Shown here one piece after another: positions 22,906 to 41,363 of a stretch of DNA of 64,000 nt (the stretch's first letter is position 1; every line of letters starts with the position of its first letter). A program made the translations under genes and the position numbers. The notes below the pieces were generated by a model. It worked only from the letters and a program-made list of their open reading frames with translations. It made no database searches and was not told where the DNA came from. Source of the stretch: Brevibacterium sp. RIT 803 (GTDB taxonomy: Bacteria; Actinomycetota; Actinomycetes; Actinomycetales; Brevibacteriaceae). Location of the stretch: assembly GCF_016892625.1 (NCBI RefSeq), contig NZ_JAFEMW010000004.1:434001-498000 (forward strand), written 5' to 3'.

Positions 22906-23880
22906 TCACCTGCTCCTTCGCCGGGCACGTGAACGCACGCGCGCCCGAGGGATCTCCGGAGCGGCAACTCGCTTGCCCACGGTGTTGGTGATCTCGCCGA
23001 TTCCTTCGAAGCTGATGACAACCACGTCACCGGGCTCCAATGCGGCCCGGGTCCTGCCGATGCCCCACAGCTCACCCAAGCAGCCGCCGTTGCCGAGCGT
23101 TCCGGAGCCGAGCACATCACCAGGCACGACGCGGGAGTTCCGGGAGGCATAGGCGACGAGTTCGGCAAAGGGCCATCCCATGTTCGACACAAGGTCTTCA
23201 CCGACGAGTTCGCCGTTGATGTGGACCTCGCCGCGCAGCTCGAGGAATCCATCCTCGTCTGCGAACTCCTCGAGTTCGTCGGCAGTGACGATCCATGGGC
23301 CCAGCGTCATACCGAAGTCTTTGCCCTTGCAGGGTCCCAGACGCACCTTCATCTCCCGTGACTGCAGGTCGCGCGCGGACCAGTCATTCATGACCGTGTA
23401 TCCGAAGATGTGTGCCCCCGCCTGGCCGACGGTGAGGTTCTCTCCCGAGGACCCTGCCACTCCCCCGATGATGGCTGCGAGTTCGGCCTCGAAGTCCATG
23501 GCCTGGGTCTGGGGAATCGGCACAGTCGCTGCCGTGGGTGAGACTGTGTGCGGATTCGTGAAGTAGAAGGTGGGAGCCTCGTACCACTCGGGCACGACTT
23601 CGCTCTTTCCATCGACTGATCCGCTGATGCCCTCCACGTGCTCTTCGAAGGCGACGAAATCCCGGATGCTCGCCGGTGTCAATGGCACCTGCAGGACTAC
23701 CTCGGCGAGAGGAACTCCCACCGAGGTTGCCGACTGGGCCAGCAGTCCACGGGCGTAATCGAGCCCGCCGGCCATCACCTCGGCGACGGTGTTTCCCTGT
23801 GGGAACGGCACCACCCGATCATCGACGACGAAGCCTTCGCCGATCTGCCCGACCGACGTTTCCCAGCGTGCAATCCTCAT
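22906..23880 (-). CDS. fumarylacetoacetate hydrolase family protein (FAAH-2)
   Basis: This 324-residue FAA-hydrolase-fold enzyme is the last gene of the six-gene operon. It shows VAFEEHVEG, the acidic metal-site stretch AMDFEAELAAIIG, GYTVMNDWSARDLQ, GKDFGMTLGPW and DVLGSGTLGNGGCLGELWG. This branch hydrolyses C-C bonds of fumarylpyruvate/acylpyruvates or decarboxylates/hydrates meta-cleavage products using Mg2+. Its ATG overlaps the stop of the amidohydrolase gene by four bases. The last ten residues are Arg-rich (RARVRSRARRRSR). The two FAAH genes differ clearly in sequence and probably catalyse successive steps. Confidence 0.9.
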   Translation of the reverse strand: MRIARWETSVGQIGEGFVVDDRVVPFPQGNTVAEVMAGGLDYARGLLAQSATSVGVPLAEVVLQVPLTPASIRDFVAFEEHVEGISGSVDGKSEVVPEWYEAPTFYFTNPHTVSPTAATVPIPQTQAMDFEAELAAIIGGVAGSSGENLTVGQAGAHIFGYTVMNDWSARDLQSREMKVRLGPCKGKDFGMTLGPWIVTADELEEFADEDGFLELRGEVHINGELVGEDLVSNMGWPFAELVAYASRNSRVVPGDVLGSGTLGNGGCLGELWGIGRTRAALEPGDVVVISFEGIGEITNTVGKRVAAPEIPRARVRSRARRRSR

Positions 23881-24959
23881 TGTCTCGCCCTCTCCTGTGC
23901 GGAAACGGTTGTCGGCCTCATCATCGCTGCGGCGTTGCTGCGCAGCAGTGCATCTGAGACCTCGGTGTCGAAGCCCTCGGTGCTCAGCAATCCCTCCACT
24001 TCACGCGCGGGATCGTCCAGACCCATATCGAAGGGGTAGTCGCTGCCGAGAACCACACGGTCGGCTCCGACGACTTCGATGAGATGGCGCAGCTGTCTGG
24101 CATCGTGGACGACGGTGTCGTACCAGATTCTGCGCAGATAGGACGAGGGCGCTTCGGCACAGCCCTGCGCATCCTCTCTGACGTTCCACGAGTGGTCGGA
24201 GCGCCCGATGGTCGTCGGCAGGTAACCGCCACCGTGGGCGGCGACGACTTTCAGCTTCGGGTGTCTGTCGAGGACGCCGGCGAAGATGAGGTGCGACAGA
24301 GCTGTGGCGGTTTCCACCGGCTGCCCCACGGTGTTGCTGAGGTAGAACCGGTCGAGACGTTCGTCGAGGCTGCAGCCGAAGGGGTGGAGGAAGACGATGG
24401 CGCCCAGTTCCTCCATCCTCGTCCAGAACGGTTCGAGTCTCTCGTCGGAGAGTTCGACCTCTCCGGCAAATGAGGGGATCTCGATGCCGATGAGACCGCG
24501 TCCCAGCACCGCGTCGTCGACGCACTCGACGATGCGCTCCGGGTGCTGCATCGGCACCAGCCCCAGACCGAGCAGGCGCTCGGGTGCCTGTGCGACGATC
24601 TCGGAGATCCTCAGATTCGCCTCTCTGGCGATCCAGGTCGCCAGGTCCTCGTCCGCCCAGGGATAGTAGTGGTTGGGTGAGGGGCTCACCCACTGCACGT
24701 CGACTCCCTGCGCGTCCATGTCGGCGATGCGTGTGTCGAGGCGGGTCAGCTTCGGTATCCGAGAACCGACCATCGGACCGGAGACTGCCGCCGATGCAGC
24801 ACCGTTGCGTCTGTGGTCCAGTTCCGCGGCGAGCGCGAACTGCTCTGGTGCCCGCTGTCGCACGAACTCCTCGAGCCCGGCGATGATCGCGTGCGCATGG
24901 ACATCAGTGACGGGGGCGAGGGCTGTGCTGGCGTCATTCGCCTCGGCGCCGGCGCTCAT
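23877..24959 (-). CDS. amidohydrolase family protein, ACMSD/resorcylate-decarboxylase-like (amidohydrolase_2)
   Basis: This 360-residue TIM-barrel protein of the amidohydrolase_2 group, which includes 2-amino-3-carboxymuconate-semialdehyde decarboxylase and gamma-resorcylate decarboxylase, has DVHAHA (metal HxH) near 18, VSPSPNHYYPWADED, FLHPFGCS, VVAAHGGGYLP and VLGSDYPFDMG (late Asp). Metal-dependent decarboxylation of an aromatic acid or ring-cleavage product is the likely reaction. It sits between the FAD hydroxylase and FAAH-2 genes with 4-base overlaps on both sides, so synthesis is tightly coupled. ATG 24959 is chosen; frame upstream belongs to the hydroxylase gene region. Confidence 0.88.
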   Translation of the reverse strand: MSAGAEANDASTALAPVTDVHAHAIIAGLEEFVRQRAPEQFALAAELDHRRNGAASAAVSGPMVGSRIPKLTRLDTRIADMDAQGVDVQWVSPSPNHYYPWADEDLATWIAREANLRISEIVAQAPERLLGLGLVPMQHPERIVECVDDAVLGRGLIGIEIPSFAGEVELSDERLEPFWTRMEELGAIVFLHPFGCSLDERLDRFYLSNTVGQPVETATALSHLIFAGVLDRHPKLKVVAAHGGGYLPTTIGRSDHSWNVREDAQGCAEAPSSYLRRIWYDTVVHDARQLRHLIEVVGADRVVLGSDYPFDMGLDDPAREVEGLLSTEGFDTEVSDALLRSNAAAMMRPTTVSAQERARQ

Positions 24960-26095
24960 GCGGGTTCTGCCATCGTCTGTGCCACTCCCATGATGAGTAC
25001 TCCAGGGTCCGCGTCCCGGTTCCCGTCCAGCTGCCACTGCGCCAGTTGACGTGATGCGTCGACGACTGCTGACGCTCGCGGAACTCGGCGAGCGTGGAAT
25101 TCGTCCCAGAGGGAAGAGTCGAGGCTGTCGTGTTCGAGGAGCAGTTCGGTGAGGACCAATGCGTCTTCGAGCGATTGTGCTGCGCCCTGCGCGATGGTCG
25201 GCGGGCAGGAATGGGCCGCATCGCCGATGATGACCACGCGACCGCGGTTCCACGCGCCCTCGACGAGGTGAGAGGTGAATTGCGTGTAGTTCACATGAGC
25301 GTTCCCCGCAGCCAAGGATTCCCGGATGTCATTCCAGGGTCCCTGGTAGGCGGCGGACTCTTCGATCATGATGGCCCTCCCCTGTTCACTCGTGACTCCG
25401 GTGCGGTCCTGGGCTCGTTCGACGAGGATGGCGTAGAGCGAATCCTGACTCGTCGGGGTGTAGCCGGCGATGAACACGGGCCCGCCGTAGTAGAGCTCGG
25501 TGCGCATCACCTCGGTGGGGCGCGGGACGAAAGCACGCCAGATCCCCATGCCATTGGGTACCGGTGCGGTCTCGATTCCCAGCAGCGATCGCACCGAAGA
25601 GTTGAGACCATCGGCACCGATGACCACGTCGTAGCGGCCTGCCTGCTCACCGTTCGTTCCAAGGTCGACGCCGCGCTCGTCCTGGGTCAGTCCTGTCACC
25701 GTCTTGCCGAAGTGGATTCTGGCCCCGGCCTCGACGGCGGCATCGACCATGATCGACGCCAGATCCGGTCGGTGCATTCCGATCCCTGCGGGGTAATGCG
25801 GCCCTCCGGTCTTGACCTCCGGCAGTTCGGCGATGACGGGTGCTCCTGGGCCGGGTGCGCGCAGAGTCAGTCCGTCGAAGGGGAAGCCCTTGGCTCTGAT
25901 GCTCTCCCAGATTCCCAGATCGTCGAAGACGCGGAGGGCGTTGCCCTGCAGGGTGATGCCGGAGCCCGCGGCAGCGAGTTCCGCCTTGTCTTCGTACAGG
26001 TCGACCTGCACGCCTGTGCGTGCGAGTCGGATCGCTGCGGCCAGACCGGCCGCACCCGCACCGACGATGGCTGCGGTATTTACTGCTCGGGTCAT
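24956..26095 (-). CDS. FAD-dependent aromatic monooxygenase (salicylate hydroxylase-like)
   Basis: This 379-residue group A flavoprotein hydroxylase has GAGAAGLAAAIRLA (FAD-ADP binding) at about 12, VIGADGLNSSVR (DG motif) near 158, and GDAAHSCPPTIAQGAAQSLEDA (FAD ribityl binding) near 288. Such enzymes use NAD(P)H and O2 to hydroxylate a phenolic ring, often with decarboxylation. It would prepare the diol for the extradiol dioxygenase encoded first in the same operon. It overlaps the amidohydrolase gene by four bases and lies 34 bases after the cyclase gene. Confidence 0.9.
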   Translation of the reverse strand: MTRAVNTAAIVGAGAAGLAAAIRLARTGVQVDLYEDKAELAAAGSGITLQGNALRVFDDLGIWESIRAKGFPFDGLTLRAPGPGAPVIAELPEVKTGGPHYPAGIGMHRPDLASIMVDAAVEAGARIHFGKTVTGLTQDERGVDLGTNGEQAGRYDVVIGADGLNSSVRSLLGIETAPVPNGMGIWRAFVPRPTEVMRTELYYGGPVFIAGYTPTSQDSLYAILVERAQDRTGVTSEQGRAIMIEESAAYQGPWNDIRESLAAGNAHVNYTQFTSHLVEGAWNRGRVVIIGDAAHSCPPTIAQGAAQSLEDALVLTELLLEHDSLDSSLWDEFHARRVPRASAVVDASRQLAQWQLDGNRDADPGVLIMGVAQTMAEPA

Positions 26096-26129
26096 GATCG
26101 GACCTCCTCGGTTGCGTATTGCTCAGGCA

Positions 26130-27152
26130 TCAGAACACAGCGATCGGGTTGACCGGTGTGCCCACGGCACCGGTGATGGGCAGAGACGGTGCGGTCAGCA
26201 GGAATTCCCAGCGGCCCTCGCCGAGGCAGGTCTGAGCCAGTTCGTCGAGTTTCCACATCTCCCCGATCATCAGACCCATGTTGGGAATGGCTACCTGATG
26301 CAGCGGCTGGAACGCCTCCACGTCGAATTCGTTGGGGCGGACTTCGAAGCCCCAGGTGTCTGTGGCGATGGCAGCGATCTCCGAGTCGTGGATCCATCCC
26401 GCGCTCGTCAAGGACAGCCCCGGTGCTGGGCCGCCCGCGTATTCGCCCCATCCCTCGCACAATGCTCGGGTCAGCTGACCGGTGCGCACGAGGACGATAT
26501 CGCCCCGGCGAACCTCCACGCCCTGGCTGGCAGCCGTGGCCGCGAGGTGATCGCCCGTGATGGCGAATGAGTCAGGCAGCTCTCCGCTCTCTGGCTCGAG
26601 GTACCTGCCTACGTCGAGCAGGATTCCGCGGGTGACGAGGACGTCGGCGGTGTGCTCGATGCCCGTGACCAGGTCACCGTCGCTGGTGACGACACTTCCG
26701 GATCGGCGACCGTTCCAAGCCTGTCCGTGATCGAAGATGTGCCCCAACCCATCCCACTGGGTCGAGCACTGCAGCGGCATCGCGATGACATCGTCTGCTC
26801 CACCTATTCCGTGGGGGAACCCCTGGTTGCCCGCTTCGGCATCAGTGCCGGTGTCGAGCATCGTGTGCACGGGGTTCGTGCGGCGCCTCCATCCTTTCTG
26901 TGGGCCGTCCATATCGAAGGGAAGCGACAGCGACACGGTCTGACCGGTGCGGACGAGAGCCGCGGCTTCGATGCGCTTTGCCTCATCGATGAAGTTGAGT
27001 GTTCCTAGGACGTCATCGTCGCCCCAACGGCCCCAATTGCGGTAGGCCTTGGCCCGTCTGCCGACCTCAGCTTCCGGGTCGTTTCGGTCGATCGAAGCGG
27101 GATCGTCAAGGGTGCCTTGATTTCCCGCCGCCGAGGTGGTCGTGTCGTTCAT
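26130..27152 (-). CDS. cyclase family protein (PF04199, kynurenine-formamidase-like fold)
   Basis: This 340-residue protein shows the cyclase-family hallmarks YRNWGRWGDDDVLGTLNFID, MPLQCSTQWDGLGHIFDHG (variant of the HxGTHxD metal motif), RGDIVLVRTGQ and VRPNEFDVEAFQPLHQVAIPNMGLMIGEMW. This long subgroup is common in aromatic degradation clusters and is thought to hydrolyse amides or lactones with metal. Its start overlaps the stop of the upstream FAAH-1 gene by four bases. Within the pathway it may open a lactone formed after ring cleavage; this is inference from context. Confidence 0.85.
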   Translation of the reverse strand: MNDTTTSAAGNQGTLDDPASIDRNDPEAEVGRRAKAYRNWGRWGDDDVLGTLNFIDEAKRIEAAALVRTGQTVSLSLPFDMDGPQKGWRRRTNPVHTMLDTGTDAEAGNQGFPHGIGGADDVIAMPLQCSTQWDGLGHIFDHGQAWNGRRSGSVVTSDGDLVTGIEHTADVLVTRGILLDVGRYLEPESGELPDSFAITGDHLAATAASQGVEVRRGDIVLVRTGQLTRALCEGWGEYAGGPAPGLSLTSAGWIHDSEIAAIATDTWGFEVRPNEFDVEAFQPLHQVAIPNMGLMIGEMWKLDELAQTCLGEGRWEFLLTAPSLPITGAVGTPVNPIAVF

Positions 27153-28195
27153 GATCGGACTCCGTCCCGTGCGCCATCGGCGGTGCTGGGTTCTTCGACG
27201 CAGCGGATGGTCTGTGTGCCCAGTCCTGAGATGTGACCAGTCAGCACATCACCGTCATGCAGGAACCGCTTCCAGTGTTGGCCGTTGCCGGCCGGACTGC
27301 CGGTGAGCAGCAGGTCGCCAGGCAGCAGCCGTGCGGTCTGGCTGGCCGTCGACAGCAGCGCGGCGAGGTCGAACATGAGACCTGAGGTGTTCGCGTCCTG
27401 TTTGACCTCGCCGTTGAGTTCGAGCCTCACATCCATGTCTGCCGGATCGACGAATCGGTCCGGGACCAGGAATGGGCCCGTGGGCAGGAATCCCGGTGAG
27501 TTCTTCGACTTCAGCCAGTCCGATCCGATCTCCTTCATGTCCTTCCTGAAGGTGAATTCTCGGGTGGAGATGTCATTGCAGATCGTAAAGCCGGCCACAT
27601 GCTCGAGCGCTTCCTCGCGGCTGACCTGGAAAGCCGGTTTGCCGATCACGGCCGCCAGCTCCAGCTCCCAGTCGTGAGTGTCACTCGACGAGGGAAGTTG
27701 CAGTGCTTCGTCGTCTCCGACGACGCAGGAAGGCAGTCCGATGAAGATGTAGGGCTCACCGTTGGCAGCGCGAGCATCCATCATCGTCGCTGCCTGATCT
27801 CTGGCAGCTTCGAGTGAGAGCTCGGTGTTGGTCGACAGTCCCGAGGCAACGAGCTCGATGACATGATCGCGATAGTTGGCGCCGGCCTGGAGCACCTGGC
27901 GTGGTTCGACCGGCGCGGTGAGAGTCACGGAGTCCAGAGGACGCCAGAGCTGACCTCCATCAGCAGAATCCTCCGCCGCCAAGGCCGCCAGCCGGTCCCA
28001 GTCCGGGTCTGCGAGGAACTCATTGAGGTTCGCAGCTCCCAGATCGGATGTGCTCAGTGCTCGGATGAGACCGCCGGCGACGAGTCCGAGGGCGGCCGGC
28101 TCCTGTCCTGCGACTGAGCCGACGACGGTGGTTGCGGTGGCGCTGGGGCCGGTGTCGCGAAAACGTGCGAGGGCGAATGGTGAGTCAAGTGTCAT
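27149..28195 (-). CDS. fumarylacetoacetate hydrolase family protein (FAAH-1)
   Basis: This 348-residue FAAH-fold hydrolase is the second gene of the operon. Features are VLQAGANYRDHVIE, HDWELELAAVIGKPAFQV (acidic metal-binding Glu residues), GFTICNDISTREFTFRKD, SKNSPGFLPTGPF and LLPGDLLLTGSPAGNG. It matches the ureidoglycolate lyase/2-hydroxyhepta-2,4-diene-1,7-dioate isomerase-like group that processes meta-cleavage products. ATG 28195 is chosen with GAGAGG upstream; an in-frame extension to 28243 is not conserved-looking. It lies 68 bases after the extradiol dioxygenase gene. Confidence 0.9.
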   Translation of the reverse strand: MTLDSPFALARFRDTGPSATATTVVGSVAGQEPAALGLVAGGLIRALSTSDLGAANLNEFLADPDWDRLAALAAEDSADGGQLWRPLDSVTLTAPVEPRQVLQAGANYRDHVIELVASGLSTNTELSLEAARDQAATMMDARAANGEPYIFIGLPSCVVGDDEALQLPSSSDTHDWELELAAVIGKPAFQVSREEALEHVAGFTICNDISTREFTFRKDMKEIGSDWLKSKNSPGFLPTGPFLVPDRFVDPADMDVRLELNGEVKQDANTSGLMFDLAALLSTASQTARLLPGDLLLTGSPAGNGQHWKRFLHDGDVLTGHISGLGTQTIRCVEEPSTADGARDGVRS

Positions 28196-28263
28196 GGTGT
28201 TGCCTCTCCTCTGCGTGGGGATTTCGTTGCGTGTGGATTCCATGTTCTGTTCTGCGAAATCCT

Positions 28264-29283
28264 TCAGCCGCGACCCTGCTTCGCGTAGGGATTGAGCAGC
28301 GCCGACTTGATCTCATCTGGGACACCTTCCTCAGTCGCCGACGGGCCGTCGGCCGGCGGGAAGGACTCGGTCATCGACATCGGCATCTGAGAGTTCTTGT
28401 AGAAGTTGTTCGACCCCTGCGAAGGGTGCCAGGTCTGCGCTTCCCAATCCGGGACATAGTTGCGGTACCCACCTGTGTTGAGCTCGATGCGCATTGTGGA
28501 CGGATCCCGATAGTAGAGGAAGTTCTGCTCGCCGATGCCGTGGATGGATGGTCCGTACTCGATTCCGACGCCGTTCTCGATGAGAGTATCGGCGGCGATG
28601 AGCAGTTCCTCACGCGTATCGACCCAGAAGGCGAAGTGGTTGACGCGACCGGGGCGGGACGATCCGTCCATGACGACGCCCAGGTCGTGGGACTTCTCGT
28701 TCGTCGTGAGCACCGAGAACACGGACACCGGGGCTTCGTCGAGCTCGGTGCGCGCCATGATCCGAAAGCCCAGGACGTCGCTGTACCACTTGGCGAACGC
28801 GTCGACCTCGGGAGTTGCGACTGTGACGTGGTCGAGCTGGCGCGGCGCGCCCGCGAAGCGGCTGCGGCGTGTGGGCCGGTCTGGGTAGACGGAGGCCTCG
28901 TCCCCGGTCGCCTCTCGGTAGTGTTCGACGTCCCAGTGGAGGGTCATCGTGTGGCCCCACGGCCCCGTGAAACGCAGGGAGCGACCGGTCGTGTGGCCAT
29001 CGAACCATTCGGCGTGGACTCCGGCAGCGGCGATGCGGTCGGCGGCCTCACGCAGAGCTTCGGGCGAGGAGGTGCGCCAGGTCATCGACTCCAATGCGGG
29101 TTCGGCGCCGGGCACGATCACCAAGCTGTAGCGGTAGTAGTCGCCCCAGCAGCGCAGATACACACGATCGTCGATCCGATCGACGACAGTCATACCGACC
29201 TGTGTTTCGTAGAACGTGACCGAGGCCTCGACATCGGGGGCGGCGATGGAGACGGAGGACAGGTGGGAAAGAAGTTTGATCAT
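28264..29283 (-). CDS. VOC-family extradiol ring-cleavage dioxygenase (catechol 2,3-dioxygenase-like)
   Basis: This 339-residue type I extradiol dioxygenase has two vicinal-oxygen-chelate domains. The iron ligands of the 2-His-1-carboxylate triad are visible in the C-terminal domain: His152 (QLDHVTVATP), His216 (RVNHFAFW) and Glu267 (MRIELNTGGY). It cleaves a catechol next to the hydroxyls with O2 and is the first gene of the operon, so it defines it as a meta-cleavage pathway. ATG 29283 is chosen (GAAGGAATCCACC upstream); a second ATG at 29298 is possible. The tail is rich in Pro, Glu and Met and lies outside the core fold. Confidence 0.92.
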   Translation of the reverse strand: MIKLLSHLSSVSIAAPDVEASVTFYETQVGMTVVDRIDDRVYLRCWGDYYRYSLVIVPGAEPALESMTWRTSSPEALREAADRIAAAGVHAEWFDGHTTGRSLRFTGPWGHTMTLHWDVEHYREATGDEASVYPDRPTRRSRFAGAPRQLDHVTVATPEVDAFAKWYSDVLGFRIMARTELDEAPVSVFSVLTTNEKSHDLGVVMDGSSRPGRVNHFAFWVDTREELLIAADTLIENGVGIEYGPSIHGIGEQNFLYYRDPSTMRIELNTGGYRNYVPDWEAQTWHPSQGSNNFYKNSQMPMSMTESFPPADGPSATEEGVPDEIKSALLNPYAKQGRG

Positions 29284-29385: not shown

Positions 29386-29401
29386 GTGATTGACTGCCCT
29401 C

Positions 29402-30346
29402 ATGACCACATCTCCGCTGATGTCGCGGCTTGATCTCAACCTGCTCGTGGCCCTTGACGCACTGCTCACAGAACGCAACGTCACCCGTGCGGCGGACAGC
29501 CTGGGCCTCAGCCAGCCTGCGCTGAGTGCTTCGCTGGCTCGCCTGCGCAGACACTTCGGCGATCCGCTGCTGGTTCGGCGCGGCAATGCAAGCGAGCTGA
29601 CCCCGATGGCGGTGCGGCTGGCTGCACAGGTGCCCTCTGCCATCGATGCGGTCCGCCGAGTGTTTGAGAGCCAAGCCGAGTGGTCACCGGAGACGTCGAC
29701 CCGACAGTTCCGGATCTTCGGATCGGACTACGGATTCGCCACGATCGGGCAGTCCGTATCGCGGCTGGCGAAGGAGACCGCACCCGGAGTGAAGTTCCGA
29801 TTCGAACTGCACACCCCAGGGATCGTCGAGGACCCCAATCGCCTGCGGGCCTCTGACGGGATCATGATCCCTCACGGGCACCTCGAGGAACTCAACCACC
29901 TCGATCTGTGGACCGATCATTGGGTGGTCCTCGTCAGCGAGGACCACCCGAGCATCGGCGATGAGCTGACTCTTGCCGACCTGCAGGACAATCCCTGGGT
30001 CTTCACATACCAGTCGCGCACGGCTTTCACCTCGGTGAACAAACAGCTCTCAGGGATGGGGATCGAACCGGTCGTCGACTCTGTCGTCGAGAGCTTCCTG
30101 GCTCTGCCCTACTTCATCCGCGGCACCGATCGGCTTGGGATCGTCCAGGCCGGGCTGGCCAGCGATTCCCGCTGCTTCGAGGGATTGCGAGCCCTCCGCC
30201 CGCCCTTCGAGGCCGTGCCCGTGGTCAATGCGCTCTGGTGGCATCCCGCGCACAAGAACGATCCGGAGCATCAGTGGATGCGTTCGCTCTTCCGGCATGC
30301 GGGAAAACAGATGAAACAGTTGGTGGATAGCTCAGCAGAAGTCTGA
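29402..30346 (+). CDS. LysR family transcriptional regulator (NodD/NahR-like)
   Basis: This 314-residue LysR protein has the N-terminal winged HTH (LDLNLLVALDALLTERNVTRAADSLGLSQPALSASLARLRRHFGDPLLVRRG, about residues 8-60) of the NodD/NahR/LinR branch, followed by a two-lobed effector domain. That branch often senses aromatic compounds. It is divergent from the ring-cleavage operon, with a clean dyad between them, and convergent with gcdH on the other side. Control of the ring-cleavage operon is more likely, but GcdR-type LysR proteins sit beside gcdH elsewhere. ATG 29402 is chosen; TTG 29390 and ATG 29420 are alternatives without better ribosome binding sites. Confidence 0.92.
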   Translation: MTTSPLMSRLDLNLLVALDALLTERNVTRAADSLGLSQPALSASLARLRRHFGDPLLVRRGNASELTPMAVRLAAQVPSAIDAVRRVFESQAEWSPETSTRQFRIFGSDYGFATIGQSVSRLAKETAPGVKFRFELHTPGIVEDPNRLRASDGIMIPHGHLEELNHLDLWTDHWVVLVSEDHPSIGDELTLADLQDNPWVFTYQSRTAFTSVNKQLSGMGIEPVVDSVVESFLALPYFIRGTDRLGIVQAGLASDSRCFEGLRALRPPFEAVPVVNALWWHPAHKNDPEHQWMRSLFRHAGKQMKQLVDSSAEV

Positions 30347-30362: not shown

Positions 30363-31559
30363 TCACCGAAACGCCTGCTCCCCTGTGATGTGACGGCCCA
30401 GAATCAGAGTGTGCACCTCATCGGTGCCTTCGTAGGTGCGCACCGACTCGAGGTTGTTGGCGTGACGCAGCGGTGAGTATTCGAGCGTGATGCCGTTGCC
30501 GCCGAGCATGGACCTGGCCTCCCGGCAGATGGCGATCGCCTCACGGCAGTTGTTGAGCTTGCCGACCGAAATCTGGACCGGGTCGAGCGTGCCCGCGTCT
30601 TTGAGTCGCCCTGTCTGCACGGCCACGAGGATGCCCTTCTGAATCTCAAGGACCATATTCACCAGCTTCTGCTGCGTGATCTGATAGCCGGAGAGAGGTT
30701 TGTCGAACTGCATCCTCTCCTGCGCATACTTCAGAGCCACCTCATAGGAGTCACGGGCCGCACCCATCACACCCCACATGATCCCGTAGCGGGCTTCGTT
30801 GAGGCAGGAGAAGGGCCCCGTGAGTCCGCGTGCATCGGGCAGGACCGCCTCGGCGGGAAGGCAGACATCATTCAGGTCGATGTCGCATTGGATGGAGGCT
30901 CGCATCGACAGCTTCGCCTCGATCGGGGTGGCGGCGAAGCCTGCGGTGTCTGTCGGAACGAGGAACCCGCGGATGCCCTCGTCCGTCGCGGCCCAGATGA
31001 CCGCGACGTCGGCGATAGATGCCAGGCCGATCCAGCGTTTGGCTCCGTTGAGGGTCCACGAGCCGTCATCATTGCGTGCTGCTGTGGTGGCCATCGATCC
31101 TGGGTCGGACCCGGCAGTGGGCTCAGTCAGGCCGAAGCAGCCGATGATCTCACCCTTGGCCATGCCCGGCAGGTAACGATTCTTCTGCTCTTCGGAGCCG
31201 AATTTGTGGATCGCGGACATGGCCAGGGATCCCTGCACGGACACGAAGGTCCGCAGTCCCGAGTCACCGGCTTCGAGCTCCATAGCCGCGAGACCGTATT
31301 CGACGGCGGATCGCCCCGGGCAGCCGTAGCCGTGCAGGTGCATGCCCAGCAGCCCGAGGTCGCCCATCTCGGCCACGATCTCTCGGGGGAAGACGGCGTT
31401 CTCATACCAGTCGGCGATGTTCGGACGGAAACGCTCATCGACGAAGGCCCGCACCATGTCGCGGAGTTCGATCTCGGACTTGCTGAGGAGTCCTTCGAGG
31501 TCGAGGAGGTCGGACTTGTCGATGTCGGCGGCATCCTGCGCGGTGGCGGTCGTCGTCAT
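30363..31559 (-). CDS. gcdH: glutaryl-CoA dehydrogenase
   Basis: This 398-residue flavoprotein acyl-CoA dehydrogenase oxidises and decarboxylates glutaryl-CoA to crotonyl-CoA. GcdH-specific stretches are SGLRTFVSVQGSLAM (carrying the Arg that binds the distal carboxylate), LTEPTAGSDPGSMATTA, and the C-terminal TYEGTDEVHTLILGRHITGEQAF with the catalytic Glu at 377. It is last in the operon MHS transporter, acyl-CoA dehydrogenase, CaiB transferase, gcdH. The single-base gap to the CaiB gene implies coupling. ATG 31559 is chosen; frame upstream overlaps that gene. Confidence 0.88.
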   Translation of the reverse strand: MTTTATAQDAADIDKSDLLDLEGLLSKSEIELRDMVRAFVDERFRPNIADWYENAVFPREIVAEMGDLGLLGMHLHGYGCPGRSAVEYGLAAMELEAGDSGLRTFVSVQGSLAMSAIHKFGSEEQKNRYLPGMAKGEIIGCFGLTEPTAGSDPGSMATTAARNDDGSWTLNGAKRWIGLASIADVAVIWAATDEGIRGFLVPTDTAGFAATPIEAKLSMRASIQCDIDLNDVCLPAEAVLPDARGLTGPFSCLNEARYGIMWGVMGAARDSYEVALKYAQERMQFDKPLSGYQITQQKLVNMVLEIQKGILVAVQTGRLKDAGTLDPVQISVGKLNNCREAIAICREARSMLGGNGITLEYSPLRHANNLESVRTYEGTDEVHTLILGRHITGEQAFR

Positions 31560-31560
31560 T

Positions 31561-32787
31561 TCAGGCTCCTGTGGTGGCTGGGTGTGGGTGGGCTGTGGCA
31601 CCGAGGATCTCGTGAGTATCTGCGCCGAGCTCCGGTGGCGCGGAACGCACGGGTGGCCGGACTCCGTTGAAGTTGACGGGGAAAGCCACCTGTCGCATCG
31701 GTCCGGCGGTGGGGTGCTCGACGGTCTGGACCATGCCCAGGGCCTCGGTCTGCGGATCAGCATAGACCTCGTCGAGGTGTTTGATCGGTGCAGCAGGAAT
31801 TCCGGAGGTCGAGAACAGTGCACACCAGTGGTCGACGGTATTCGTGCGCAGAGTGCGGGAGAGCTCCTCGTTGAGGTAGTCGCGGTTCACGACTCGACCG
31901 CGGTTGGCTGACAAGCGTTCGTCACCGCCGAGATCCGGCCGGTCGATGGCGGTGCAGAGGCTTCGCCACAGGGAATCGTTGCCGATTGCGATGACGAAGT
32001 AGTCATCGGCGGCAGGATAAGCCTGGTATGGCACGAGGTTGGGATGACCAGAGCCAAGAGCGTGCGGGCGTCTGCCGTCGGCGAAGTAGTTCGTCGCCCA
32101 ATTCACGTGCAGCGCCAGCTGTCCCTCATAGAGGGAGGTCGTCAGGTACTGGCCCTTGCCGGTCCGACTGCGTTCGAAGAGCGCGGAGACGATGCCGATG
32201 ATTCCGAACAGTCCCGCACCCAGGTCGCCCATGGCGAAGCCTGACTTCATCGGCGGGCCGCCTGCTTCTCCGGTCAGGGACATGAGCCCGCCGCGGGCCT
32301 GGGCGACCATGTCGTAGCCGGGTTCATCGCGCATCGGTCCGTGATCTCCGTAGGCGGAGATGTGGAGGATGACGAGGTGCGGGAACGTCGCCGAGAGCTC
32401 CTTGTAGTCGAAGATCGTCTGCAGGGAGCTGCCGGGCCTGAAATTCTCGACGAGGACATCGGCCTCGGCTAGCAGGTCGTGGACCTGTGTCTGTCCACGA
32501 TCGGATTTGAGGTCGATCGTCACGGACTTCTTGCTGTGGTTGGCGGCGTGGAAGTAGGTGGCATCGGCGCCGACCGTCGGCGGACCCCAGGCTCGGGTCG
32601 GGTCTCCACCGTCCGGGTGCTCGACCTTGATCACTTCGGCACCGAGGTCGGCCAGTGACATCGTGGCATAGGGTCCGGCGAGGATCTTCGAGAGGTCGAT
32701 GACGCGCACACCGGCGAGTGGTCCTTCGAAATTCCCGCCTGCCGCAGTGCTCGCATCGAGGGTGGATTCTGTCTCTGTGTTTCTCAT
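31561..32787 (-). CDS. CaiB/BaiF (family III) CoA-transferase
   Basis: This 408-residue family III CoA-transferase moves CoA between acids through an aspartyl anhydride. The conserved parts are LAGVRVIDLSKILAGPYATMSLADLGAEVIKVEHPDGGDPTR, GYDMVAQARGG with catalytic Asp159, and GKGQYLTTSLYEGQLAL. Next to gcdH, the likely role is activating glutarate (or a related dicarboxylate) with succinyl-CoA, like SUGCT in mammals and the GcdG-type partner of bacterial GcdH. GGAG lies upstream of the ATG. Confidence 0.9.
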   Translation of the reverse strand: MRNTETESTLDASTAAGGNFEGPLAGVRVIDLSKILAGPYATMSLADLGAEVIKVEHPDGGDPTRAWGPPTVGADATYFHAANHSKKSVTIDLKSDRGQTQVHDLLAEADVLVENFRPGSSLQTIFDYKELSATFPHLVILHISAYGDHGPMRDEPGYDMVAQARGGLMSLTGEAGGPPMKSGFAMGDLGAGLFGIIGIVSALFERSRTGKGQYLTTSLYEGQLALHVNWATNYFADGRRPHALGSGHPNLVPYQAYPAADDYFVIAIGNDSLWRSLCTAIDRPDLGGDERLSANRGRVVNRDYLNEELSRTLRTNTVDHWCALFSTSGIPAAPIKHLDEVYADPQTEALGMVQTVEHPTAGPMRQVAFPVNFNGVRPPVRSAPPELGADTHEILGATAHPHPATTGA

Positions 32788-32813
32788 GACTTGCTCCGGT
32801 GTTGTCTGTGGTT

Positions 32814-34526
32814 TCAGGCCACGGGTGCGGATGTTGGGACGACGTCGGCTGGCACAGCGTCGCGGGGCACGGTCGTGCCATCGACGATGTCATCGAAGTG
32901 GGACAGGGTGTCGACCACGGTGTGCTCGTCGCCTGTGATGGTGGTGCCGATGAAGGTCCTGGCGACGAGCAGCTTGCGGAAGTTGGCAGCGCGGGTGACT
33001 TCGACATCGGCCTGTTCGAGCACCAGGGTCGCCATGATCAGCTGCGCCAGATCGTCGGCATAGCCGCCGATGAGAGCCTCAGCGGCATCGGCCTCGGCAT
33101 TGAGAATCGCGTCACCGCGATCGACGATCGCGTTCCATCTGGTCAGAAGCTCACGGATCTCAGGGCCCGCCTCGGCGAGGGCGATGGTGCTCAGCTTCTG
33201 CGTCATCGTCTCGGCCAGGAGCCTGTGGGCGCCCTGTTTGCGCATGCACCGCAGGACGTCGAGGGCGATGACGTTGCTCGAGCCCTCCCAGATCGAACCC
33301 AGGTGTGAGTCGCGGACGAGGCGGGCATCGGGGAATTCCTCGATGTAGCCGCGACCTCCGCGGACCTCCATCGCCTCACCGGTGACGAAGCGGGCGCGTT
33401 TGCAGATGTAATGCTTGGCCAGCGGGGTGAGGACGCGGATCTGCGCGGTCGCATCCGCATCGCCGGCGTCGGCTCGTTGGAGGATGTCGCCGGCGTAGAA
33501 GACGAGCCCCAGAGCGGCCTCGGCTTCGGCCTGCAGCGGCAGCAGGGTCATGCGCATCAGTGGTGCTTCGCTGAGGGTCTTGCCGAAGACTACGCGTTGG
33601 CGGGCGTGGGCGAGCGCTTCGTTGATCGACCTGCGCATGAGGGCGGTGGCGCGCATCGCGTTGGACAGTCGGGAGGTGTTGACCATCTCCGCCATCTGTC
33701 GAAATCCGCGTTCAAGTTCGCCGACCTGAATAGCATAGGCACCGTTGAGGGTGACCTCGCCGCTGGGCATCGACCTGGTGCCGAGCTTGTCCTTGAGCCT
33801 GTCGATGACATAGGAGTTCTTCGTCCCGTCCGGACGGTGCTTGGGCAGCATGAACAGTCCGACTCCACGTGTGGTGTCATCGCCGCCGGGGAATCTGGCG
33901 AGGGTGAGGATGATGTCGGCGTCCGGGTTCGAGGCGAACCACTTGCGGCCGAACAGGGCCCAATTCTCGCCCTCGCGTTCGGCCACGGTCGACGTCTGAG
34001 CGATGTCGGTGCCGGCATGGATCTCGGTCATGAACATCGCACCGGTGAACCGACGCTCGGGATCGGTCGAGATGAGACGATCAATCGCCTCGGCGATCTG
34101 CTCGCCTTCACCGAACTTCCGCAGGGTCCGCGCCGCGGCATCCGTCATCGACACCGGGCAGGCAAGGCCGAACTCGGCCTGGACGAAGACGTAGGAGAGG
34201 ATGTATTTGACCAGGTGGGGTGGCACGTCTTCCCAGCCGTGGAGGCCTCGGTGTGAGAGCGCGGAAAGTCCGTACTCTTCGTAGGCGGCTTTCTGCAGCT
34301 CCTGATAGCTGTGGTGGTAGTCGATCGTGTCGACGCGATCGCCCTCGCGGTTGAACTGCGCCAGCATCGGCGGGTTCTTGTCTGCGACATCGGCCAGTGG
34401 GGCGAGGCGCTGTGCGGCGTCGGCGCCGAGTGCAGTGAGTACCGGGGCCAGCAGCTCCTGATCGCTCGTGTCGAGGTAGGACTCGATGAGGGGCTGCAGA
34501 GCGGGATCGAGGTCGATGTAGTTCAT
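32814..34526 (-). CDS. acyl-CoA dehydrogenase family protein, AidB-like long form
   Basis: This 570-residue protein is longer than the usual 380-400. Acyl-CoA-dehydrogenase signatures are MFMTEIHAGTDIAQT (flavin contact), LGTRSMPSGEVTLNGAYAIQVGE, and GGRGYIEEFPDARLVRDSHLGSIWEGSSNVIALDVLR in the C-terminal domain. The catalytic-base region resembles isovaleryl-CoA-dehydrogenase/AidB forms. N-terminal (about 1-120) and C-terminal (about 450-570) helical extensions account for the extra length. AidB proteins act in alkylation stress, but here the gene lies in a CoA-acid operon, so a catabolic oxidation is more likely. GAAGGAA lies upstream of the ATG. Confidence 0.87.
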   Translation of the reverse strand: MNYIDLDPALQPLIESYLDTSDQELLAPVLTALGADAAQRLAPLADVADKNPPMLAQFNREGDRVDTIDYHHSYQELQKAAYEEYGLSALSHRGLHGWEDVPPHLVKYILSYVFVQAEFGLACPVSMTDAAARTLRKFGEGEQIAEAIDRLISTDPERRFTGAMFMTEIHAGTDIAQTSTVAEREGENWALFGRKWFASNPDADIILTLARFPGGDDTTRGVGLFMLPKHRPDGTKNSYVIDRLKDKLGTRSMPSGEVTLNGAYAIQVGELERGFRQMAEMVNTSRLSNAMRATALMRRSINEALAHARQRVVFGKTLSEAPLMRMTLLPLQAEAEAALGLVFYAGDILQRADAGDADATAQIRVLTPLAKHYICKRARFVTGEAMEVRGGRGYIEEFPDARLVRDSHLGSIWEGSSNVIALDVLRCMRKQGAHRLLAETMTQKLSTIALAEAGPEIRELLTRWNAIVDRGDAILNAEADAAEALIGGYADDLAQLIMATLVLEQADVEVTRAANFRKLLVARTFIGTTITGDEHTVVDTLSHFDDIVDGTTVPRDAVPADVVPTSAPVA

Positions 34527-34581
34527 GGTTCCTTCTCTGGTCATACGTGGTTGCTGCGCCGAGCGGTCGAATCGGTGGCGA

Positions 34582-35994
34582 TCAGCGGCTCGTTGTGGGT
34601 GCCGATTCCTCGGCTTCGCTCACGCTCGCCGAGGTGGTGCTCGCCTCGGCGACGTGCCCGGCTTCTCCTTCGCGATTGATCCAGGACTTTCCGCGCAGCA
34701 GGAGAGACATACACACAACGGAGATGAGGACGTAGCCCAGGCCGAGGCAGACGACGACCCAGATCGATCCGGTGGCGCTGAGAAGAGCCTGGCTGAGGAA
34801 GGGCGCGGTACCGGCGAACAGAGCCGTCGAAACCTGGTAGGCCACGGAGATCCCGGTGTAGCGGATGGTGGTGGGAAACAGCTGAGCAAGGACGCCTGCC
34901 AGTGCTGCGTAGTACATCGCGTGCGGTGCAGTGGCCAGCACCATGCCGAACATCGCCAACCAGAAATTTCCGGTCTGGATGAGGAGGAACATCGCCGGCA
35001 GCAGCACCAGCTCAGGCAGAAGCATCATGAGGATCGCCTTCTTCGCGTCGACTTTCGACGCGAGGATAGCTCCGAAGGGCTGGATGATCACCTGAGCGAT
35101 CAGAGCTGCGGTGATGACTTGGAGGAACTGCGTGCGGCCGAATTCCAATTCGGTCGTCGCCCAGGACAGGGCGAACGTCGTCTTGACGTAGGTGATGGCC
35201 ACGCCTGCAACGACTGCGCCGATCGCCAAGGAGACCACCTTCCAGTGGTTATGCAGCAGTTCGACGATCGGGGTGCGCTTCTGCGGTGCCTTCTCCGTGG
35301 CTGCGATCATCTCGGGAGATTCGGTGATCTTGAGCCGAATGTAGAGACCAACGAGAATGAGGACCGAAGAGGCGAGGAAGGGAATTCTCCACCCCCAGGC
35401 ACCGAAGTTCTCGGCGCTCATATAGGTCAGGCCAAGGAAGGAGACGGTCGCCAACAAGTTGCCGACCGGTGACCCCTGCTGTGCGAAGGCACCGTAGAGG
35501 ATCTTCTTGCCCGGGGGCGCGAACTCGGTCGCGATGAGGACCGCGCCGCCCCATTCGCCTCCCATGGCGACTCCCTGGATGACGCGGAGGAGGACAAGCA
35601 GGATCGGAGCCATGAACCCGATCTGTTCGTAGGTGGGCAGGAGGCCGACACCGACCGTGGCCGCTCCCATGAGCAGGAGTGTCGTGATGACGGTGTTCTT
35701 CCGACCGAATTTGTCGCCGAAGTGACCGAAGACGATACCGCCGAGCGGCCGGGCGATGAAGCCGACGGCGAAGGTGGCGAAGGCAGCGAGTGTGCCCATC
35801 GCCGGGCTGACTTCCGGGAAGAAGAGCTTGCCCAGCACCAGCGCCGAGGCGGTGCCGTAGATGTAGAAGTCGAACCATTCGATGGTGGTACCGATGAAGG
35901 CAGCGGTGCCGGCTCGGCGCCCCTGCTTGGGATCGACCTTCGGTGCGGGTGTCGCGTCAGAGTCGGGGATCGACGCTGATCCAAGGTTGCTCAT
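34582..35994 (-). CDS. MFS transporter, metabolite:H+ symporter (MHS) family
   Basis: This 470-residue carrier has 12 predicted membrane segments. MHS hallmarks are TIEWFDFYIYGTASAL in helix 1, GFIARPLGGIVFGHFGDKFGRKN (the loop 2-3 signature), RVIQGVAMGGEWGGA, and a helix 7-8 region with YVKTTFALSW. The family brings organic acids (citrate, ketoglutarate, shikimate, aromatic acids) into the cell with protons. It is first in the operon with the CoA-transferase and dehydrogenases, so its substrate is probably their acid. ATG 35994 is chosen. The upstream gap with two dyads is shared with a divergent LysR gene. Confidence 0.9.
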   Translation of the reverse strand: MSNLGSASIPDSDATPAPKVDPKQGRRAGTAAFIGTTIEWFDFYIYGTASALVLGKLFFPEVSPAMGTLAAFATFAVGFIARPLGGIVFGHFGDKFGRKNTVITTLLLMGAATVGVGLLPTYEQIGFMAPILLVLLRVIQGVAMGGEWGGAVLIATEFAPPGKKILYGAFAQQGSPVGNLLATVSFLGLTYMSAENFGAWGWRIPFLASSVLILVGLYIRLKITESPEMIAATEKAPQKRTPIVELLHNHWKVVSLAIGAVVAGVAITYVKTTFALSWATTELEFGRTQFLQVITAALIAQVIIQPFGAILASKVDAKKAILMMLLPELVLLPAMFLLIQTGNFWLAMFGMVLATAPHAMYYAALAGVLAQLFPTTIRYTGISVAYQVSTALFAGTAPFLSQALLSATGSIWVVVCLGLGYVLISVVCMSLLLRGKSWINREGEAGHVAEASTTSASVSEAEESAPTTSR

Positions 35995-36051
35995 GTCTGC
36001 TCTCTCGTTGCTGGATGACTCAATCTGTGCTGTCATCACTGTTCCACTTGT

Positions 36052-36107
36052 ATTACGCAGAGTCCAAGACGTAATCTCTACGCTATTAATTGACAATTCT
36101 TATTAAT
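36052..36107. promoter_or_regulatory. two dyads in the MHS operon/LysR divergent promoter
   Basis: ATTACG-N12-CGTAAT (36052-36075) and ATTAAT-N11-ATTAAT (36085-36107) lie in the only AT-rich stretch of the 171-base gap. TTGACA (36090-36095), a perfect -35 hexamer on the + strand, lies between the ATTAAT elements, though no good -10 follows at 17 bp. This is likely LysR binding and divergent promoter DNA. Confidence 0.5.
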
Positions 36108-37140: not shown

Positions 37141-38556
37141 TTACCAGCTGATCACGTGGGGAACGCTGACGTGCTTGAGGCCCTCGAGACCGAATTCGAG
37201 CCCGAAGCCGGATTTCTTCACACCGCCGAAGGGAATCCGCGGGTCCACGGCACCGTGCTTGTTGATCCACGTCGATCCTGCTTCCAGGCGGGCTGCGACC
37301 TTCTTGCATTCCTCGAGGTCACTGCCCCAGACCGAGGAGCCGAGACCGACCTCGAGCTCGTTGGCCCACCCGATGGCCTGTTCCAGGTCTGTGTACCTGA
37401 TGATCGGCAGAACTGGTCCGAACTGTTCTTCGGCGACCAAGGGGTTGTTGTTGTCGATATCTGCCACGAGCGTGGTCGGATAGAAGTAACCGGGCTGATC
37501 GGCAGCGGGGTCACCTCCTGTGAGGACTCGAGCTCCACCGTCCTTCGCCGCCTGGACGAGCTTGGCGACGATATCGTACTGCTGCTTGTTCTGCAGCGGC
37601 CCGAGCACGTTCTCCTCTTTCAGGCCCACTCCCATCGGTGACTGCTTGGCCACCTCGACGAGGGCATCGCAGACCTGGTCGTAGAGGGATTCGGGCACGT
37701 AGAGGCGCTTCATCGCTGCACAGGTCTGACCGGTGTTGATGAATGCACCCCAGAACAGGTCGCCGGCGATGGCCGCAGGATCGGCGTTCTCGAGCACGAT
37801 TCCCGCGTCGTTGCCGCCCAGCTCCAAGGTCAGACGGGCCAGAGTATCGGCCGCCGAGGCCATGATCGCCTGGCCCGTCTTGGTCGAACCGGTGAACATG
37901 ATCTTGTCGACATCGGCGTGGGAGGTCAATGCTGCACCGACCTCGCCACCGCCGGGAACCACGGTCAGCACATCGGCGGGCAGGACCTGATTGACCACCG
38001 CGACCAGCGCCTGCACGGACAGCGGCGTGTATTCGGAGGGCTTGAGCACTACGGTGTTGCCCATCTTCAGCGAGGGCGCGAACTGCCAGACCGAGATCAT
38101 CATGGGCCAGTTCCACGGCCCCACAGCGCCGATGACACCCACCGGCGCGTAGTGAAGTTCGGCGTGGGTCTCCTCATCGTCGACGAGAGTTTCGGCGTCG
38201 AGCTCGAAGGCAGCATTCGCCCGCAGCCACGCAGCGCAGGCACCTACTTCGAAACGGGCATTGGGTCCGTTGAGCGGCTTGCCCTGCTCACGGGAGAGCA
38301 GTTCCGCCAGGGCCTCGGCGGATGCCTCGATCGCGTCGGCGGCCTGATTCAACAGTCCGCTGCGCTCCTGCGAGCTCCGCGCCGCCCAATCGGGCTGGAC
38401 CTTGCGGGCGGCAGCCACAGCGGTGTCGATGTCGGCGGGGCTGCCCTCACGGGTGCGGCCGACAACCTCGCCTGTGGCGGGGTCGAGCAGCTTGCGACCG
38501 TTCGGGTCCTCGATGGACGACAGCAGTCCTGCGTAAGTGGTGACGTCGGTGCTCAT
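37141..38556 (-). CDS. aldehyde dehydrogenase family protein
   Basis: This 471-residue NAD(P)-dependent aldehyde dehydrogenase has VGPWNWPMMISVWQFAPSLKMGNTVVLKPSEYTP (cofactor binding), FTGSTKTGQAI, LELGGNDAGIV (general-base Glu near 245) and FINTGQTCAAMKRLYV (catalytic Cys near 280). It oxidises an aldehyde to the acid. It is downstream of an APC permease and an AraC regulator on the same strand, next to a copper amine oxidase, so the aldehyde released from an amine is the expected substrate. AAGGGAG precedes the ATG. Confidence 0.9.
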   Translation of the reverse strand: MSTDVTTYAGLLSSIEDPNGRKLLDPATGEVVGRTREGSPADIDTAVAAARKVQPDWAARSSQERSGLLNQAADAIEASAEALAELLSREQGKPLNGPNARFEVGACAAWLRANAAFELDAETLVDDEETHAELHYAPVGVIGAVGPWNWPMMISVWQFAPSLKMGNTVVLKPSEYTPLSVQALVAVVNQVLPADVLTVVPGGGEVGAALTSHADVDKIMFTGSTKTGQAIMASAADTLARLTLELGGNDAGIVLENADPAAIAGDLFWGAFINTGQTCAAMKRLYVPESLYDQVCDALVEVAKQSPMGVGLKEENVLGPLQNKQQYDIVAKLVQAAKDGGARVLTGGDPAADQPGYFYPTTLVADIDNNNPLVAEEQFGPVLPIIRYTDLEQAIGWANELEVGLGSSVWGSDLEECKKVAARLEAGSTWINKHGAVDPRIPFGGVKKSGFGLEFGLEGLKHVSVPHVISW

Positions 38557-38632
38557 GATTCTCCCTTTCTGGAGGTTGACTTGGCTGATCTCGGTGGTTG
38601 TCGATGGTTCATGGGGCGGATCGGCAGGGTCA

Positions 38633-40129: not shown

Positions 40130-40253
40130 GTGATCCCCCTTGCGATAGTGGCTGTATCGTCAGGTTCTCTCATCAGCCTTGCCGGTGTCTTGGCTCTGGA
40201 AGCAGGACTCTTGACTTTCGGCGCAGAGAAAGCCGCGTCGTGGATTGCTCGAG

Positions 40254-41240
40254 TCAGCGCAATGCGCTGCGGCGGAACTGCGCCGGAGGCGATCCCACCA
40301 GGCTGCGGAAGAGTCGGGAGAAATGGGCCGGGTCGCTCAGGCCCCACCGAGCTCCGATCGCCGCAACGGGAACCTGCGACTTCTGCGGATCGGCGAGGTC
40401 GTGTCGGCAGGCCGCGATTCGGCGACGACGGATTTCCCCGGACACCGTCTCCCCGCTGCCCTCGAATACCTGATGCAGCGTGCGTACCGACATGAAATGA
40501 GCGGCGGCGATCGTTGAGGGTGTCAGCTGCGGGTCGGCGAGATTGGCGTCGATGTAGGCGGTGACCTCCGTCCAGAGTCGCTGCCTCTCCCCCGGCGCAT
40601 CGTCTGACTCTGCGAGCTCATCGGCCATGACGGTGGTGAGCAGGTCGACGACGTTTCCGGCCAACCTGATTCCGACGGACCGGTTGAGCGTGGGCAGCAT
40701 GGCTCCCGCTTGCGTGATGATCTGCGTGGCAACGGCGCCGAGCTGATGATCGGCGCCGATCGAGGTGGCCGTGAGCCGACCGACGGTGTCGGTGGGCAGG
40801 TTCACCCGCGATTGCGGGAACATCATCACGTAGGACGAGAAGTCACAGTCGAAGCTCAGAGTATAGGGACGCGAGGTGTCGTAGATCGCCAAGGAACCGG
40901 GCGCCAGAGACACTTCTCGACCATCTTGGATGAGGAGTCCATGCCCGTTGAGCTGGAGTGAGACCTTGTAATAGTTCGTCGACGAGCCCACCTTGAGCCC
41001 ATCCGCGTCGCCGGACCCGGTTGCGTTGCCGGGTGAATCCGCCCCGATGAGATCCGGGGTTCGCAGCACAGCATGAGGGTTGGCGCTGATGTGGGACATG
41101 ACGACGGAGTCATAGTCGCGGGCGCTGATCGCTCCTCTGAATCCGCCGCGGCGGGCAGGCTCGGTGTCCAGCGGCACGAACGAGTCCGAGACGAGGGCTT
41201 GCCACCCGTCGAAATCAGAGGCTGTGCTCTCAAGTAACAT
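40254..41240 (-). CDS. AraC family transcriptional regulator (FeaR-like)
   Basis: This 328-residue protein has an N-terminal AraC_binding_2-type sensor domain (about 10-190, with YYKVSLQLNGHGLLIQDGREVSLAPGSLAIYDTSRPYTL) and a C-terminal double HTH (about 225-325; LTPSTIAAAHFMSVRTLHQVFEG...GLSDPAHFSRLFRSLVGSPPAQFR). FeaR, the E. coli activator of tynA and feaB, has this layout. The gene neighbours here (aldehyde dehydrogenase, permease, copper amine oxidase) match that set, so amine-dependent activation is inferred. ATG 41240 is preferred (GAGAAGGA upstream); ATG 41261 is possible. Confidence 0.88.
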   Translation of the reverse strand: MLLESTASDFDGWQALVSDSFVPLDTEPARRGGFRGAISARDYDSVVMSHISANPHAVLRTPDLIGADSPGNATGSGDADGLKVGSSTNYYKVSLQLNGHGLLIQDGREVSLAPGSLAIYDTSRPYTLSFDCDFSSYVMMFPQSRVNLPTDTVGRLTATSIGADHQLGAVATQIITQAGAMLPTLNRSVGIRLAGNVVDLLTTVMADELAESDDAPGERQRLWTEVTAYIDANLADPQLTPSTIAAAHFMSVRTLHQVFEGSGETVSGEIRRRRIAACRHDLADPQKSQVPVAAIGARWGLSDPAHFSRLFRSLVGSPPAQFRRSALR

Positions 41241-41347
41241 CTTCGTCCTTCTCAGAAACATCCGACGACCGACTGCTGTGTCGACGATCACTTGGCGCCA
41301 CTCTATCCCCAACCACGCGGGGAGTCACGGCTTCTCAGGCATTTACC

Positions 41348-41359
41348 GACCATATGGTC
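41348..41359. promoter_or_regulatory. 12-bp perfect palindrome GACCATATGGTC
   Basis: It lies four bases past the TetR stop and 108 bases upstream of the AraC start (both genes on the minus strand). Its symmetry and location suit a TetR- or AraC-linked operator for the amine uptake operon. Confidence 0.4.
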
Positions 41360-41363
41360 ATGA

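Follow-up and report, generated by a model that had tools for sequence, protein, structure and literature searches.

What does the tightly packed six-gene cluster in this part of the Brevibacterium sp. RIT 803 genome degrade? The window, the whole 64,000-nucleotide stretch that was analyzed (contig NZ_JAFEMW010000004.1, positions 434,001 to 498,000), contains six open reading frames, all on the minus strand, running from 29283 down to 22906 in the order EDO-FAA1-CYC-FAD-AMH-FAA2. Pfam confirmed all six families: a two-domain VOC-type extradiol dioxygenase (EDO, 28264..29283, PF00903), an FAA-family hydrolase of the 2,4-dioxo-acid (acylpyruvate) type (FAA1, 27149..28195, PF01557), a long cyclase-fold hydrolase (CYC, 26130..27152, PF04199), a group A flavin monooxygenase (FAD, 24956..26095, PF01494), an ACMSD-like amidohydrolase (AMH, 23877..24959, PF04909), and a second FAA-family hydrolase, of the fumarylacetoacetase type (FAA2, 22906..23880, PF01557). 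The genes overlap by 4 bp (ATGA) at FAA1/CYC, FAD/AMH, and AMH/FAA2, and the gap between CYC and FAD is 34 bp. A first-pass annotation, made from the sequence alone, had described a tightly coupled meta-cleavage operon with three ATGA overlaps that fits no standard catechol, homoprotocatechuate, or gentisate route; the coordinates, strand, and families bear out the first point, and we came to the same view on the second. The operon probably serves the aerobic degradation of 5,7-dihydroxyflavones of the apigenin/luteolin type, and it is most likely a flavone A-ring meta-cleavage operon, an actinobacterial version of a known flavonoid meta-cleavage strategy.

In the proposed route, FAD would hydroxylate C8 of the 5,7-dihydroxyflavone, and EDO would then cut the C8-C8a bond of the 8-hydroxyflavone. 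Because C8a bears the ring oxygen, the product would be a 2-pyrone with C8a as its carbonyl, namely a 4-hydroxy-6-aryl-2-pyrone carrying an acylpyruvate arm (C5-C8 = R-CO-CH2-CO-COOH). FAA1 would hydrolyze this arm to yield pyruvate and 4-hydroxy-6-aryl-2-pyrone-3-carboxylate, from which AMH would remove CO2; a 4-hydroxypyrone-3-carboxylate is a vinylogous salicylate and is suited to a decarboxylase of the ACMSD/resorcylate type. The lactone of the 4-hydroxy-6-aryl-2-pyrone would be opened by CYC to an aroylacetoacetate, which has the 3,5-dioxo acid pattern of fumarylacetoacetate, FAA2 being FAH-like, and FAA2 would split it into 4-hydroxybenzoate or protocatechuate plus acetoacetate. Each of the six enzymes would be used once, with a carbon balance of 15 = 7+4+3+1. 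The reactions listed in the first-pass annotation (hydroxylation, decarboxylation, ring cleavage, lactone opening, and two C-C hydrolyses) remain plausible as a set, with the decarboxylation moved from a first step on an aromatic acid to a step on the pyrone after ring cleavage.

The gene content, order, families, neighbors, and replacement pattern were observed in a collection of related loci. One scan of 84,980 species genomes yielded 76 loci, and two plasmid loci were added for a total of 78, mostly in Microbacterium, Agromyces, Demequina, Arthrobacter, Herbiconiux, and similar soil or plant actinobacteria. Neighbors were searched to about 10 kb on either side, and "absent" means absent nearby. 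The exact gene order was kept in 36 of the 78 loci and the last five genes, with a divergent EDO, in nine more, so that conservation of the operon goes far beyond chance; related loci are not independent, and such counts overstate the number of separate events. The FAD hydroxylase and the VOC-type dioxygenase were encoded together, as an fde/ifc-type flavonoid meta-cleavage pathway requires. At the edge of this distribution, plasmid pAtK84c of Rhizobium rhizogenes K84 (L084, 3739-17269) carried a distant Pseudomonadota version with several SDR genes, an EDO 46% identical to that of the window, and an FAD monooxygenase and an alpha/beta hydrolase that were 53% and 55% identical to Deinococcus proteins. 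A Bacillota-labeled contig in a record titled Planococcus sp. APC 4015 (L041) held a typical Microbacterium-like operon with C-glycoside genes; this assembly is probably mislabeled or contaminated.

The best argument for the step assignments came from a gene replacement among these loci. Of the loci, 58 had AMH and 16 an alpha/beta hydrolase, with Demequina and Deinococcus represented among the latter, and no locus had both; FAA1 accompanied AMH in 55 of its 58 loci, and CYC and FAA2 were retained in most alpha/beta hydrolase loci. On the FAD tree, well-supported branches show at least six changes between AMH and the alpha/beta hydrolase, and one replaced the other in all six independent pairs (sign test p 0.03). 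The FAA protein of Deinococcus was of the FAA2 type (41% vs 30% identity). The best PDB match of the alpha/beta hydrolase was 2,6-dihydroxypseudooxynicotine hydrolase, an enzyme that cuts the acyl arm off an electron-rich dihydroxy heteroaromatic ring. To judge from this match, a single reaction could replace both the acylpyruvate hydrolysis and the decarboxylation assigned to FAA1 and AMH: the C-C hydrolase would cut the arm at the pyrone and release oxaloacetate (15 = 7+4+4). Since AMH is lost with FAA1 while CYC and FAA2 mostly remain, AMH fits the arm-removal branch. The replacement pattern had been seen before the pathway was written, and the pathway is therefore an explanation fitted to it and not an independent prediction.

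The neighborhoods of the related loci also pointed to the predicted end products; these CoA-transferase and pca neighbors were sought only after the pathway had been written down. The operon was surrounded by pcaIJF with pcaR in L036, L039, and L044, by pcaIJ in L024, and by pobA and pcaHG in L010, L056, and L058. A 3-oxoacid CoA-transferase of a second type directly followed FAA2 in L083 and lay near the operon in L020, L042, L044, L051, L053, L056, L058, and L062, where its subunits B were 65-80% identical to the one in L083 and about 50% identical to the pcaJ type. We take this second type to be an acetoacetate CoA-transferase from its resemblance to ScoAB. In the window's own genome, pobA (C8:413928-415091; 405 bits, below the model cut-off of 538.7) and pcaHG (C8:415276-416485; pcaH above its cut-off) were found about 41 kb from the operon. 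In L056 and L058, the pobA, pcaHG, CoA-transferase, and thiolase genes all lay within 10 kb of EDO, and L056 additionally held the other five operon genes, so that almost all of the proposed route is encoded in a single region.

A link to C-glycoside deglycosylation was likewise observed. Relatives of C-glycoside 3-oxidases lay near EDO in 30 of the 78 loci, together with CGDB (PF19906) and TIM-barrel deglycosidase subunits, and the conserved neighbors included GMC oxidases with best PDB matches to 7dve and 7qf8, presumably the structures of CarA and PsG3Ox. A relative of 2-hydroxy-3-keto-glucal hydratase was also among the conserved neighbors; one gene considered as a deglycosidase subunit (L010:7458-8504) was rejected as such, being related to that hydratase and to 2zds. 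Strong oxidase copies were detected in 12 of 19 relatives' genomes searched, 24 copies in total with 23 of them within 30 kb of EDO; the 12 genomes had been chosen since their loci showed an oxidase, so that this figure shows that the copies are linked and not how frequent the linkage is. The other seven genomes had no oxidase copy or one weak copy. In Microbacterium trichothecenolyticum DSM 8608, the operon lies between two oxidase genes. On a plasmid of Deinococcus aetherius, the deglycosidase alpha and beta genes, the oxidase, and EDO stood in a row, and a Deinococcus aerius cluster is described, in the title of its report, as deglycosylating C-glucosyl flavonoids and xanthonoids (reference 27 in PMC11673046). 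Homologues of CarABC, PurABC, and PsG3Ox flank the operon in many Micrococcales (PMC8563793, PMC12724307, PMC10646112); those systems end at the free aglycone, and the operon would act afterwards. The characterized oxidases and deglycosidases act on C-glycosyl flavones, isoflavones, xanthones, and carminic acid (PMC8563793, PMC10646112, PMC12724307). Deglycosylation genes together with neighbors for 4-hydroxybenzoate, protocatechuate, and acetoacetate use point to a flavonoid-type 5,7-dihydroxychromone substrate, and they speak against the substituted aromatic acid or N-heterocycle that the first-pass annotation had suggested.

The individual enzymes were compared with characterized relatives, and the candidate catalytic residues of EDO, FAA1, FAA2, and AMH were essentially invariant across the aligned relatives. 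EDO has C23O/HPCD relatives in the PDB and scored under the catechol 2,3-dioxygenase equivalog cut-off of TIGR03211 (240 vs 320.2 bits). Its candidate iron ligands His157, His221, and Glu272, assigned by motif position as the Fe(II) 2-His-1-carboxylate triad of VOC-type extradiol dioxygenases, were invariant in 77 sequences, as were His204 and Tyr262 (residue numbers count from the ATG at 29298). FAD scored above the cut-off of NCBIfam NF005313, an unnamed subfamily, and its PDB relatives were 6-hydroxynicotinate 3-monooxygenase and salicylate hydroxylases. For AMH, the best PDB relatives were ACMSD, followed by 5-carboxyvanillate and gamma-resorcylate decarboxylases, with LigY among the weaker ones; the ACMSD/Amidohydro_2 metal ligands (HxH, His192, His242, and Asp307) were found in every aligned sequence with a residue at those positions, and no kynurenine-pathway context was seen in the operon.

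The first-pass annotation had called the two FAA hydrolases different, and they were only 27% identical to each other, with different nearest solved relatives. The nearest NCBIfam model of FAA1 was 2,4-didehydro-3-deoxy-L-rhamnonate hydrolase, with a score below its cut-off, and its PDB relatives were HpcE, L-2,4-diketo-3-deoxyrhamnonate hydrolase, and FAHD1; the FAHD1-like His111 was kept in every aligned sequence with a residue there, and E/D at 114 in most. FAA2 matched fumarylacetoacetase best in both NCBIfam (TIGR01266, far under the equivalog cut-off at 79.5 vs 375.3 bits) and the PDB (FAH). Its Asp74...His81, E131, E133, and Glu270, that is, FAH-type metal acids and the His/Glu pair, were invariant in 63 sequences, and we take Asp74, His81, and Glu270 to correspond to D126, H133, and E364 in FAH numbering. 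The resemblance of FAA1 to pyruvate-forming hydrolases and of FAA2 to acetoacetate-forming ones supports their assignments in the flavone pathway. CYC is predicted to have the PF04199 fold (isatin hydrolase/KynB fold): Foldseek matched its model (mean pLDDT 76) to isatin hydrolase and kynurenine formamidase folds, with an E value of 1.3e-7 for isatin hydrolase A. The classical PF04199 metal motif HxxxHxD...H was not found in CYC, which has Q128, Q132, D134, and H138 in 63 of 63 relatives (motif LQxSTQWDGLGH); the same double-Gln pattern occurs in its nearest solved chain, the uncharacterized structure 5ibz.

The isoflavone pathway of Variovorax provides an experimental precedent: C8 is hydroxylated, the A-ring is cleaved, and a hydroxy-aryl-pyranone accumulates (PMC11069340). 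That ifc pathway uses FAD-dependent 8-hydroxylation and a glyoxalase-type A-ring dioxygenase, the steps proposed here from the genes, and its cluster also carries a 2,6-dihydroxypseudooxynicotine-hydrolase-like alpha/beta hydrolase, as do the loci that have replaced AMH. Unlike the present operon, ifc belongs to Pseudomonadota, is isoflavone specific, and processes the pyranone by cupins (IfcD), and the text of that paper names no FAA hydrolase, cyclase, or amidohydrolase. The fde naringenin operon of Herbaspirillum seropedicae similarly proceeds by C8 hydroxylation (FdeE) and A-ring meta-cleavage (FdeC), whereas its substrate is a flavanone and FdeE works with the Rieske protein FdeD (as described in PMC11303751 and PMC8552027). 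A characterized cluster of the same six families, which the first-pass annotation had treated as the decisive counter-case, was looked for and was not found in the papers searched. Three clusters were compared and rejected: the 4-hydroxypyridine kpi cluster, with an alpha/beta hydrolase, an amidohydrolase acting as a dioxygenase, and one FAA protein, differs in its families (PMC7356986); the riboflavin/lumichrome lum cluster, with P450, xanthine oxidase, and Rieske enzymes, gave no match (PMC12746152); and the benzoxazinoid bxd cluster has a VOC protein, and its text did not match the six-family set (PMC11297187). A kynurenine/3-hydroxyanthranilate route, brought to mind by the ACMSD-like and KynB-like families, was also rejected: genes for kynureninase and 3-hydroxyanthranilate dioxygenase are missing from the operon, EDO is related to C23O, and the classical metal motif is not present in CYC.

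Several points weigh against the flavone reading. We infer the substrate, every catalytic step, and the step order, and FAD and EDO were likened to FdeE/FdeC and IfcA/IfcB by described function. With Gln128 and Gln132 in place of the classical metal-binding His residues, the lactonase activity of CYC is not assured. The models TIGR02428/02429 do not separate PcaIJ from SCOT. In the window's own genome, a search turned up neither a match to deglycosidase alpha nor a close oxidase, and CarABC/PurABC/PsG3Ox were not found there; the flavone link for RIT 803 thus rests on its relatives only, and the strain may use free aglycones or O-glycosides. Moreover, glycosides of xanthones and anthraquinones are also substrates of the deglycosylation enzymes.

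This breadth leaves some room for these reactions to act on a different C-glycoside aglycone that has a ring of the phloroglucinol type, such as a xanthone (norathyriol), an isoflavone (genistein), a flavonol, a flavanone, or a dihydrochalcone. Linkage to C-glycoside genes does not tell the aglycone, and the enzymes accept mangiferin, puerarin, and carminic acid (PMC10646112, PMC12724307, PMC8563793). We regard such a substrate as possible but unlikely: from a xanthone the route would pass through 4-hydroxycoumarin to a 3-oxo acid, and FAA2 would not receive the 3,5-dioxo substrate usual for it; in daidzein the 5-OH required for the acylpyruvate arm is missing; a flavanone should yield a cinnamate; and the pobA/pca neighbors fit a B-ring that leaves as a benzoate. 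The flavone pathway might also run with other assignments, AMH opening the pyrone (the Amidohydro_2 enzymes also include LigI and LigY) and CYC acting elsewhere. The weak match of AMH to LigY, a meta-cleavage compound hydrolase, and the two missing metal-binding His residues of CYC would suit this arrangement, which is doubtful given that ACMSD is by far the best relative of AMH and that AMH is lost with FAA1 where the C-C hydrolase is present, CYC and FAA2 mostly staying. The view of the first-pass annotation, in which a substituted aromatic acid or N-heterocycle is degraded and AMH or FAD decarboxylates it first, agrees with the 6-hydroxynicotinate and salicylate hydroxylases closest to FAD and with the likeness of AMH to ACMSD and benzoate-type decarboxylases; it leaves unexplained both the recurrent C-deglycosylation and acetoacetate/pca linkage and the paired loss of AMH and FAA1, and we consider it very improbable.

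Plants commonly make flavone C-glycosides, and these withstand ordinary glycosidases. The enzymes with which soil actinobacteria take off the sugar were characterized recently, and the papers found go no further than the free aglycone; a 2025 study of puerarin called a Paenarthrobacter strain the first soil bacterium known to catabolize a C-glycosylated flavonoid (PMC12724307). We see about an even chance that the operon represents the second half, not described before, of the aerobic use of C-glycosylflavones by soil actinobacteria. Its six enzymes would then carry a flavone all the way to acetoacetate, pyruvate, CO2, and an acid of the benzoate type; the arm could be removed interchangeably by FAA1 with the decarboxylase or by a single C-C hydrolase; and CYC would stand for a new class of PF04199 lactonases marked by two Gln residues. 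If flavone degradation is the true function, the operon names every enzyme of the stage after deglycosylation, and genes annotated as "VOC/cyclase/FAA/amidohydrolase" gain activities that can be tested. It would also provide marker genes for following flavonoid turnover in the microbiomes of plants, and an example of two chemically equivalent enzyme sets that have repeatedly replaced each other.

Within the genus Brevibacterium, EDO was found in 5 of 57 genomes, which makes the operon accessory there; the nearest named locus was that of Brevibacterium sp. UCMA 11754 (EDO 96%). The EDO start at 29283 (MIKLLSHLS) is where the conserved part begins. A divergent LysR-type regulator gene (29390..30346, plus strand, PF00126 and PF03466), listed with a TTG start and likelier to begin at the ATG at 29402, adjoins the operon here and in several relatives, and the LysR-EDO intergenic region aligned only loosely among relatives. 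Beside the operon, window positions 30363-36096 (minus strand) encode a glutaryl-CoA-dehydrogenase-like protein, a CaiB-type CoA-transferase, a second acyl-CoA dehydrogenase, and an MFS symporter, an arrangement kept among the loci only in the nearest Brevibacterium locus (L008). Positions 37141-44008 contain an aldehyde dehydrogenase gene, an amino-acid-permease-like gene, AraC and TetR regulators, and an apparent copper amine oxidase gene; judged by eye for all but the aldehyde dehydrogenase, this region resembles a cluster for the catabolism of aromatic amines.

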